Below, piece by piece: positions 3,422 through 7,222 of a stretch of 64,000 nucleotides of DNA. The notes under the pieces are model-generated. The model had not been told where the DNA came from. It ran no database searches and saw nothing but the letters and a program-made list of their open reading frames with translations. Position numbers and translations under genes: made by a program. The DNA is from Tsukamurella conjunctivitidis (GTDB lineage Bacteria; Actinomycetota; Actinomycetes; Mycobacteriales; Mycobacteriaceae), in the NCBI RefSeq assembly GCF_007858475.1, contig NZ_VIGX01000005.1, positions 62,001 to 126,000 on the forward strand. The letters are read 5' to 3'. Every line of letters begins with the position of its first letter. The first letter of the stretch is position 1.

Positions 3422-6064
3422 ATGGCATCGAAGACCACCACCCGCGCGCGCGGCGCCGCGAACTCCCGCTCCGGCGGCGCTCGGACCAGCCGCGCCGCGA
3501 GCCCGACGCGCAGCCGCCAGGCCGCCCCGCGCTCCCGCGGCAAGCAGGGCGCCGCGGCCCCCAAGGCCGCCCCGGGTGGTGGGGGAGTGGCCCGTGGTCT
3601 CGGCGCAGGGTGGAAACTGCTGGCCAAGGGGGTCGGCGGCGCCGTTCGCACCGGTAGCCGCGCCGGCGACGCCGAGCCCGCGACCGGCGCGACCGGCGAC
3701 GTGACCCCGCCGAAGCCGACGCACTCGCGCGACGGTCTCGCGCTCGCCCTCTTCGCCGTCGCGATCATCCTCGGTGCCGCCGTCTACTTCGATGCCGGCG
3801 GGCCCGTGGGCTCGTTCTTCTCGACGGGCGTCCGCGCGGTCGTCGGCTGGTTCGCAGTGCTCGTCCCGCCGCTGGCCATCGCGCTCGGCGTGATCATGAT
3901 GCGCCGACCCGACAACCCGTCGGCCCACGTGCGCCACCGCGTCGGCGGCGCCCTCATCGTGCTGCCCTTCCTCGGCCTGCTGCACATCGCGTCGGGCGGA
4001 CCGTCGACCTTCGACGACCGCGCGGCCGCCGGCGGCTACCTCGGCTACGTCGTGGGCGGACCGCTCACCGACGGGTTCACCGCGTGGATCTCCGTGCCCC
4101 TGCTGGTCCTGGTCGCGGCCTTCGGCCTGCTACTGGTCAGCGGCATGACGGTGCGCGAGATCGTCGACCGCCTCAAGTTCTACTTCGGTGTCGACATGCG
4201 TGAGCAGTACGGCGACGAGGAGCCCCTCGACGACGAGGACCTCGACTCGCCCTTCGCGGCCTTCGACTCCGGTCGCGCCGACACCGCGACCCGCGCGCTG
4301 ACCCCGTACGGCGATCCGTACGACAACTACCCGGCAGATCCCGAGCCGCCCAAGCGCGGCCGCCGCCGCACGACGGCGGACGCGGACGAGCCCGCACCGT
4401 CGGACCAGGTGACGGCACCCATCGCGCCCGATCCCGCCCCGTCCGAGGAGCCGACGGTCGAGGTTGCCCCGGCGCCCAAGCCGCGCCGCGCCGCGGTGGT
4501 CAAGGACCACACGCCGCCACCCGCTCCGAAGGCGACGGAGTTCACCGTGGCCCGCACCATCGACAGCGAGGACTACATCCTGCCGCCCGCCGACCTGCTC
4601 ATCGAGGGCGAGCCGGCCAAGGCGGGGACCAGCGCCAACGACGCGATGATCGACGCGATCAGCGGCGTCATGGAACAGTTCAAGATCGATGCGGCCGTCA
4701 CCGGCTACACGCGTGGCCCGACGGTCACGCGGTACGAGCTCGAGCTCGGCCCCGGCGTCAAGGTCGAGAAGGTCACGCAGCTGCACCGCAACATCTCGTA
4801 CGCGGTGGCGACCGACAACGTGCGCCTGCTGGCGCCGATTCCGGGCAAGTCCGCCGTGGGCATCGAGGTGCCGAACACCGACCGCGAGATGGTCCGCCTG
4901 GCCGACGTGCTGGCTTCGGACAACACGCGCAAGGACACGCACCCCCTCGTGATCGGCCTCGGCAAGGACATCGAGGGCGAGATGGTCAATGCCAACCTCG
5001 CCAAGATGCCCCACCTGCTGGTCGCCGGTTCGACGGGCTCCGGCAAGTCGAGCTTCGTGAACTCGATGCTCGTCTCGCTGCTCGCGCGCGCGACGCCCGA
5101 CGAGGTGCGGATGATCCTCATCGACCCGAAGATGGTCGAGCTGACGCCGTACGAGGGCATCCCGCACCTCATCACGCCCATCATCACCGACCCCAAGAAG
5201 GCCGCCGCCGCGCTGGCGTGGCTGGTCGAGGAGATGGAGCAGCGGTACAAGGACATGCAGGCCTCGCGCGTGCGGCACATCGACGACTTCAACCGGAAGG
5301 TGCGCTCCGGGGAGATCACGACGCCGCTCGGGTCGGAGCGCGTCTACCGGCCGTACCCGTACATCGTCGCCATCGTCGACGAGCTCGCCGACCTCATGAT
5401 GACCGCGCCGCGCGACGTCGAGGAGGCGATCGTCCGGATCACGCAGAAGGCGCGCGCCGCCGGCATCCACCTGGTGCTCGCGACGCAGCGGCCGTCGGTG
5501 GACGTCGTGACCGGCCTGATCAAGACCAACGTCCCGTCGCGCCTGGCCTTCGCCACGTCGTCGCTGACGGACTCGCGGGTCATCCTCGATCAGCCCGGCG
5601 CCGAGAAGCTGATCGGTATGGGCGACGCGCTGTTCCTGCCGATGGGCGGCAAGTCGACCCGTATGCAGGGTGCGTTCATCACGGACGAGGAGATCACCTC
5701 CGTCGTCGACTTCGTGCGCAACCAGGCCGAACCCGAGTACGCCAACGGCGTCACCGAGACGAAGGTCGAGAAGAAGGACGTCGATCCCGACATCGGCGAC
5801 GATCTGGACGTCTTCCTGCAGGCCGTCGAGCTGGTGGTCTCGTCGCAGTTCGGCTCGACGTCGATGCTGCAGCGCAAGCTGCGCGTCGGCTTCGCGAAGG
5901 CCGGCCGCCTCATGGACCTCATGGAGTCGCGCGACATCGTCGGGCCGTCGGAGGGATCGAAGGCGCGCGACGTGCTGGTCACGCCGGACGAGCTGCCCGG
6001 CCTGATGGTGATGTTGCGCGGCGGCGGCGATGTCGCTCAGGAAGCCGACGAACCGGACTTCTGA
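3422..6064 (+). CDS. ftsK: DNA translocase FtsK/SpoIIIE
   Basis: An 880-residue septal ATP-dependent DNA pump that clears and segregates chromosome termini during division. Domains in order: a basic Ala/Arg/Ser-rich N-terminus (1-100), about four membrane helices (roughly 105-240), an acidic/Pro-rich linker (255-375), the RecA-like motor with Walker [11 protein letters not shown] (535-544) and Walker [14 protein letters not shown], and a C-terminal gamma winged-helix domain (from about 815, [17 protein letters not shown]) that reads polar DNA motifs. Length is normal for actinobacterial FtsK. The stop codon overlaps the promoter of the next gene. Confidence 0.97.
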
Positions 6065-6070
6065 TACAGT
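6062..6070 (+). promoter_or_regulatory. Extended -10 promoter overlapping the ftsK stop codon
   Basis: TGATACAGT reads as an extended -10 (TGN plus TACAGT), and its TG comes from the ftsK TGA. Transcription would start near 6077, about 9 nt before the riboswitch. No convincing -35 is seen. Confidence 0.5.
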
Positions 6071-6083
6071 CCTGCTTGCATGT

Positions 6084-6198
6084 GTGAGGGGAGTATCCCG
6101 CTCGCGGCGTGAACGTCAACACGGTGGATCGACATCCACCCGGGCGCGCCGGACCCGCTGACCGGGTCGGGAGAGACCTCCGGATCTGTACCGGAGGT
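6084..6198 (+). promoter_or_regulatory. yybP-ykoY (Mn2+) riboswitch with SD-sequestering hairpin
   Basis: The leader of the terC-family gene carries the yybP-ykoY hallmarks: GGGGAGTA (6088-6095), GTCAACAC (6115-6122), a helper hairpin GGTGGAT/ATCCACC (6123-6129 with 6134-6140), GACCCG/CGGGTC (6152-6157 with 6163-6168), and GGGAGAGACC (6169-6178). GAGG at 6086-6089 can pair with CCTC at 6177-6180 to close the aptamer. The same CCTCCGG (6177-6183) can instead pair perfectly with CCGGAGG (6191-6197), burying the ribosome-binding site. The sequence therefore shows two exclusive pairings. Known members sense Mn2+ and turn genes on; that part is family knowledge. Confidence 0.87.
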
Positions 6199-6205
6199 GT
6201 ATGCA

Positions 6206-7222
6206 ATGCAAGTTTCGGCTCTCGTCTGGATCGTCTCGATCCTGGTGGTCCTCGGGCTGTTCGTCTTCGACTTCTTCAGCCACGTGCGCACGCCGCACGA
6301 GCCCTCGCTCAAGGAATCCGGCTTCTGGTCGGCGGTCTACATCGGCATCGCGATCCTGTTCGGCATCGGCGTGTGGGCGGTGTCCGGGCCGCAGTACGGT
6401 GGGGAGTTCTTCGCCGGCTTCGTCACCGAGAAGGCGCTCTCGGTGGACAACCTGTTCGTCTTCGTCATCATCATGGCGAAGTTCGCGGTGCCCCGGATCT
6501 ACCAGCAGAAGGTGCTGCTCATCGGCATCGTGATGGCGCTGGTGATGCGCGCCGGCTTCATCGCCGTCGGCGCCGCCGCGATCTCCGCGTACTCCTGGGT
6601 GTTCTACATCTTCGGCGCGTTCCTGCTGTACACCGCGATCAAGCTGGTCAAGGAGGCGTCGTCGCCCGAGGGCCCGGTCGAGGACGAGAAGGAGCGCGAG
6701 GGCCGCGTCGCCGCGCTGTTCAAGAAGATCGTCCCCACCACGGAGACGTACGACGGCGACAAGCTGATCACGAAGATCGACGGCAAGAAGGTCGCCACCC
6801 CGCTGCTGCTGGCGCTGGTCGTCATCGGCTTCACCGACGTGCTCTTCGCGCTCGACTCGATCCCCGCGATCTACGGTCTCACCCAGGAGCCCTACCTGGT
6901 GTTCATGGCGAACGCCTTCGCGCTGATGGGCCTGCGCCAGCTGTACTTCCTCATCGGCGGCCTGCTCGACCGGCTGGTGTACCTGTCCTACGGCCTGTCC
7001 ATCGTGCTCGGCTTCATCGGTGTGAAGCTGGTGCTGCACGCGCTGCACGAGAACACGCTGCCCTTCATCAACGGCGGCCAGCACGTCGCGGTGCCGGAGA
7101 TCTCCACCGGCCTCTCGCTGTCCGTGATCCTGGGTGTCCTGGTGATCACCACCGTCGCCTCGCTGGTCAAGTCCCGGCGGGACGACAGGAAGGCCCTCGC
7201 GGACAAGGGCGCCGACGAGTAG
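6206..7222 (+). CDS. TerC/Alx-family membrane protein, probable Mn2+ exporter
   Basis: A 338-residue integral membrane protein with about nine helices. Recognisable TerC features are the acidic residues within membrane helices in FVTEKALSVDNLFVF (near residue 73) and GFTDVLFALDSIPAIYG (near 210), plus a cytoplasmic charged loop (PVEDEKEREGR). ATG at 6206 was chosen because GGAGGT (6193-6198) sits 7 nt upstream. Members behind yybP-ykoY riboswitches (E. coli Alx, B. subtilis MeeF) are linked to manganese export or metalation of exoenzymes, so this gene is likely involved in Mn2+ homeostasis rather than tellurite resistance. Confidence 0.9.
   Translation: MQVSALVWIVSILVVLGLFVFDFFSHVRTPHEPSLKESGFWSAVYIGIAILFGIGVWAVSGPQYGGEFFAGFVTEKALSVDNLFVFVIIMAKFAVPRIYQQKVLLIGIVMALVMRAGFIAVGAAAISAYSWVFYIFGAFLLYTAIKLVKEASSPEGPVEDEKEREGRVAALFKKIVPTTETYDGDKLITKIDGKKVATPLLLALVVIGFTDVLFALDSIPAIYGLTQEPYLVFMANAFALMGLRQLYFLIGGLLDRLVYLSYGLSIVLGFIGVKLVLHALHENTLPFINGGQHVAVPEISTGLSLSVILGVLVITTVASLVKSRRDDRKALADKGADE

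Follow-up and report, generated by a model that had tools for sequence, protein, structure and literature searches.

What lies in the short interval between ftsK and terC, and how would it act on the gene that follows? The question arises in a window of 64,000 nucleotides of Tsukamurella conjunctivitidis DNA, the whole stretch analysed here, where ftsK (3422..6064, recognised as an ORF and by protein search) is the upstream neighbour of terC (6206..7222), both on the + strand, as are all the window features located below. The first-pass annotation had claimed a yybP-ykoY core in 6062..6206, a hairpin masking the Shine-Dalgarno sequence (SD), and a promoter locking the downstream gene to ftsK.

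A complete yybP-ykoY aptamer of 100 nt was indeed found between the two genes, at 6084-6183, both from the sequence and with R1, a covariance model of our own, and its core motifs are where they had been claimed: GGGGAGUA (6088-6095), CGUCA (6114-6118), CCGG (6140-6143), and GAGACC (6173-6178). The P1 5′ arm GAGG (6086..6089), which pairs with 6177-6180, is followed by the 5′ side of L1 in the metal-binding core (6090..6095) and by the P2 5′ arm (6096..6099), which pairs with 6169-6172, both arms being placed by alignment, covariation, and pairing. The P3 5′ arm (6105..6111, pairing with 6145-6151), the P4 hairpin (6123..6140), and the P5 hairpin (6153..6167), a further arm of the junction, were placed by alignment, R1, and covariation; the 5′ side of L3, including CGUCA with A6118, was placed at 6112..6122 by the alignments. 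The structure is completed by the P2 3′ arm GGGA (6169..6172; pairing and R1) and by the segment 6173..6180, made of the L1 3′ side GAGA and the P1 3′ arm CCUC. Two features of the class are, thus, present in the window: the L1 core GGGGAGUA ... GAGACC between P1 and P2, and the L3 core CGUCA..ACG / CCGG between P3 and P4. The L1 motifs recur among the 175 hits of R1 (GGGGAGTA in 168, GAGACC in 167), which, contrary to the 22 leaders used for training, were not chosen by these motifs. By analogy with the solved aptamers (PMC6754395), A6118 of CGUCA is a candidate for the discriminator adenosine. By motif, we take it to lie opposite the L. lactis / X. oryzae adenosine.

R1 gives the window element 113.7 bits (an E-value of 2.6e-25 over the 64 kb, the runner-up having 10.3 bits), a score to be read knowing that this leader is itself part of the training set, so that independent support has to come from covariation and from relatives. 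Every pair modelled by R1 forms in the window sequence, and the folding of 6080-6215 is modestly above shuffles (z -2.38; 8 of 200 shuffles equally good). The training set comprises 22 actinobacterial leaders, 21 of them from a DNA search of 61 genomes (matching in 22, and in 15 of the 16 within the genus Tsukamurella) and one from the locus L001, selected with core motifs as the criterion and without regard to neighbouring genes. On the alignment of these leaders (A1), helices P1-P5 set by hand leave 98.2% of the cells paired, as opposed to only 40-51% when the helices are slid along it; both partners change in 17 of the 25 pairs, no shuffle out of 500 attains any of the five measures, and RNAalifold returns the same helices. 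A second alignment of 83 distinct rows (A2), fitted to the R1 model, is 97.5% paired, with 20 of the 25 pairs changed on both sides. Covariation is strong in P3, P4, and P5, which vary widely. In each of P1 and P2, a single pair varies on A1, the change being confined to one sequence, and two pairs vary on A2. Core and SD types were counted only where they pair, and hence were excluded from the covariation evidence. The covarying helices of the class, P1-P4 and the junction arm, were all recovered.

At E <= 0.01, R1 E-values being rough, the model has matches in 247 of the 298 order genomes and in 61 of the 296 phylum genomes; a search of 167 loci yielded 175 hits, corresponding to 172 distinct leaders. 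It also finds E. coli alx (46.2 bits, E 5.1e-10, model positions 1-100) and E. coli mntP (17.5 bits, E 0.0043, the P3-P4 part being unaligned), so that the actinobacterial element is linked to members already tested and, through alx, is homologous to an experimentally known one. The window element is a member of the known yybP-ykoY class, well conserved, apparently intact, and individually ordinary.

The check proposed in the first-pass annotation, a search with the Rfam model RF00080, came out differently: it gave no match in the window over the gathering cut-off and none at E <= 10, and its best score in the same genome was 10.2 bits, at another place. That negative holds as a search result but not as a refutation, since E. 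coli alx is missed as well (no match at E <= 10); E. coli mntP reaches 41.6 bits versus a cut-off of 45. In the printed consensus of the Rfam release 15 copy, GGGGAGUAGC is unpaired, and P1 and P2 are absent from the model. Nine of 14 control genomes match at E <= 10, three, E. coli among them, at E <= 0.01, and two over the cut-off; on the order, the figures are 5 of 298 genomes at E <= 0.01 and 0 of 298 over the cut-off. We, thus, set RF00080 aside as a membership test because the E. coli control failed, even though two of the 14 control genomes exceed the cut-off. A negative from a copy that is devoid of the outer stems and misses alx says little, and we judge the miss to be a weakness of this copy of the Rfam model.

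The gene downstream is terC, as previously annotated: an ORF opening at an in-frame ATG at 6206, 8 nt after GGAGG, whose protein matches PF03741 at 174 bits. The element, thus, stands upstream of a gene of Mn2+ homeostasis, the role ascribed to the TerC family. The 172 distinct leaders precede genes for TerC (135), UPF0016/GDT1 (14), P-type ATPases (11), exchanger-like proteins (4), peptidase M50 (2), and one other protein (L062), with none for the remaining 5, targets being assigned by similarity to references drawn from the same set. The Pfam search covered a single reference for each of GDT1, the ATPase, the exchanger (L140), and M50, plus the window TerC; for two of the four exchanger-like loci, the reference is L075, which we labelled by eye. 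Of the five leaders left without a target label, three lie where a contig ends, L167 is GDT1-like by eye, and L125 has no assignment.

Some of these other leaders deserve a mention of their own. The same genome holds a second R1 leader (L001:1503-1690, 66 bits) before a GDT1 antiporter gene (PF01169), in which a long hairpin resembling a terminator can be formed with the P1 3′ arm, leaving the SD outside. Another GDT1-type leader (L183:501-760) carries a classic terminator-like AGACCTTTGGC..GCCAAAGGTCTTTTTT that has the P1 arm in common. Two or three R1 leaders lie close together in L110, L043, L103, L105, L121, L128, and L247, and the three terC-like genes of L110 apparently have one each. 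A peptidase M50 protein, with a CBS domain as well in L163 (Pfam), is the unexpected target in L163 and L171, and in L062 (1501-2522) the leader is followed by a 283-aa protein with no Pfam match at E <= 0.001.

In the window, the SD GGAGG (6193..6197; sequence and pairing) is contained in a hairpin at 6176..6198, supported by pairing and leader counts, where ACCUCCGG (6176-6183) pairs with CCGGAGGU (6191-6198) across a loop of 7. The masking hairpin previously described is, thus, present, with a length of 8 bp instead of the 7 first given. Within its 5′ arm lies CCUC 6177-6180, the same P1 3′ arm that pairs with GAGG 6086-6089 in the closing stem, so that this part of the claim is borne out and the hairpin and P1 are mutually exclusive.

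In 118 of the 135 terC leaders, the best helix between the arm and the stretch of at most 24 nt ahead of the start reaches 6 bp or more; 121 carry a complement to the P1 arm that begins 7-20 nt before the start codon, 14 have none, and GGAGG occurs in 110. For all the counts given here, start codons were picked by a script favouring starts with an SD. Shuffled targets reach the median SD-helix score in 0.4%. Swapping arms between loci gives a score of 19.3 versus 20.8 for their own, with extension pairs clearly above swaps at the third position only; this control is weak because the arms are nearly invariant, and we, thus, added a background count. Two C’s directly precede GGAGG in 102 of the 110 terC leaders (spacing of 4-11 nt, TTG starts allowed) versus 9 of 134 background ORF sites (4-9 nt, ATG/GTG only, ORFs of at least 100 aa, taken from the window and every fetched locus except the two of E. 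coli). The p-value of this comparison is not literal, given the relatedness of the sequences and the slight difference in spacing rules. These two C’s are not part of a normal SD, and their count is the strongest evidence that the SD would be masked. A translational design before terC appears well supported.

Upstream of the aptamer, the promoter-like extended -10 element TGATACAGT (6062..6070) overlaps the ftsK stop TGA (6062-6064) and, as had been noticed, uses its TG. The motif TGnTAnnnT is kept in all 15 Tsukamurella loci and overlaps the ftsK TGA in 11 of them, the ftsK stops of L009, L012, L013, and L014 having been read directly from the sequence. In L013-L015, the ftsK stop (TAG or TAA) is a few nt upstream and the TG of the -10 is separate; in L016, the extended -10 is kept and ftsK was not found upstream. 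The proposal that terC is physically locked to ftsK does not survive these four exceptions, nor the separation of leader and ftsK elsewhere. Within 500 bp upstream, ftsK was found for 13 of the 172 leaders. Among 320 named terC relatives, the nine closest are from Tsukamurella (86-96% identity); 55 of the best 80 have an R1 leader and 25 do not, and ftsK is upstream of 33 of the former versus 11 of the latter. In this same best 80 of 320, all eight Nocardia terC genes (L198-L204, L207) stand beside ftsK with no R1 leader found, and none was found for L212, L214, L233, and L241 (Mycobacterium or Mycolicibacterium). We, thus, rejected the lock, since in other genera the leader and the ftsK neighbourhood each occur without the other. 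The variable stop-codon overlap beside a constant -10, together with the ftsK counts, shows that the -10 goes with the riboswitch rather than with the stop codon, and the coupling to ftsK is incidental. Across the 172 leaders, TAnnnT peaks 12-19 nt before the aptamer (77, versus 30 over offsets 20-79); at offsets 12-39, it is found in 80 leaders versus 22 in shuffles and is absent in 92, so a putative -10-like element at 12-19 nt is best described as a trend of the family.

Sequence and comparison, thus, support the aptamer, the SD hairpin, the strand they share, and a promoter-like element near the aptamer. Taken as a whole, the locus is very probably a Mn2+ riboswitch of the yybP-ykoY class that turns terC translation on, and the design that we infer as fitting best is a translational switch turned ON by Mn2+. 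Transcription would be driven by the extended -10 promoter where ftsK ends, and would start just before the aptamer. When Mn2+ is scarce, CCUC 6177-6180 would pair in the 8-bp hairpin, hiding the SD and leaving terC untranslated; Mn2+ binding between L1 and L3 would stabilise P1, which would then take CCUC, free the SD, and switch on terC, whose product presumably serves Mn2+ homeostasis. Nearest-neighbour energies, which include no tertiary or metal terms, are -61.8 kcal/mol for the OFF fold versus -49.1 for the ON fold; with OFF favoured by 12.7 kcal/mol, switching would need co-transcriptional folding or a large stabilisation by Mn2+. A 5′ hairpin GUGAGGGGA/UCCCGCUCGC, which might conceal P1 and P2 when the switch is OFF, is stable, averaging -11.1 kcal/mol over the 172 leaders and lying below -6 kcal/mol in 96.5% of them. 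We nevertheless set it aside, as locus-swapped tails give the same mean (-11.0); with shuffled tails the mean is -9.5 kcal/mol, some signal composition-wise.

The same aptamer could instead act mainly on transcription, by termination or through Rho, which we consider unlikely. Members with the same P1 arm do have terminator-like hairpins, with a T run in L183 and without a long one in L001, and Rho may also gain access to an mRNA that is not translated; in the window, however, no T run follows the hairpin 6176-6198, the SD itself is inside it, and 121 of the 135 terC leaders have the complement of the P1 arm 7-20 nt ahead of the start codon. We find it more doubtful still that Mn2+ is not the sole ligand, or that the leader responds instead to a different divalent ion or to alkaline pH: full activation of E. 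coli mntP takes both Mn and alkaline pH, as described for that leader (PMC9603457), but the L1/L3 core is kept here, including the candidate for the adenosine that contacts Mn2+ in the solved members (PMC6754395). A broken or vestigial leader that has lost switching is highly improbable: the computed energies do favour the OFF fold by a wide margin, but the window sequence forms every pair of the model, and the aligned Tsukamurella leaders share a conserved core.

The RF00080 copy misses the window element and, seemingly, most of its relatives (5 of 298 genomes of the order, versus 247 of 298 with R1), so Mn control in Actinobacteria may be under-annotated where RF00080 is relied upon. Such control is not unknown there: C. 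glutamicum terC had been annotated from Rfam by 2013 (PMC3890552). The main text of a 2022 survey of mycobacterial RNAs uses “riboswitch” seven times and “manganese” or “yybP” nowhere (PMC9569102), and no literature title on Tsukamurella riboswitches or on a M. tuberculosis manganese riboswitch/terC was about the window leader. With somewhat more doubt than belief, we propose that Actinobacteria hold a very common GC-rich subtype of Mn2+ riboswitch unseen by RF00080, whose leaders before terC follow one fixed translational plan, the promoter lying directly against the aptamer and the 3′ strand of P1 serving as anti-SD, and which is paired in one cell with a terminator-like version before a GDT1 antiporter; if true, one type of sensor would have two outputs within one cell.

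Among known systems, E. coli alx aligns with R1 over its full length, its P5 arm being 32 nt longer; we take Alx to be a TerC-family protein, and its database record names the product a Mn exporter. In the E. coli mntP leader, Mn is described as switching translation on (PMC9603457). The window element differs from alx and mntP in being GC-rich and in the ftsK gene that precedes it. C. glutamicum cg2157 shares the target gene terC with the window, a likeness drawn by annotation; its yybP-ykoY leader is given 49.13 bits with the Rfam of the time and a transcript start, seen by RNA-seq, 6 nt away from where the Rfam element begins, this being the one of three yybP-ykoY predictions for which a transcript is reported, the other two being given as not observed (PMC3890552). 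The aptamers of L. lactis yoaB and X. oryzae yebN are described as a four-way junction with a metal site between L1 and L3 and an invariable adenosine (PMC6754395). P1.1 has been described as a switch helix (PMC11087558). In X. oryzae, P1.1 is reported to act on an antiterminator, whereas in the window the P1 strand itself would mask the SD (PMC6754395 for X. oryzae).
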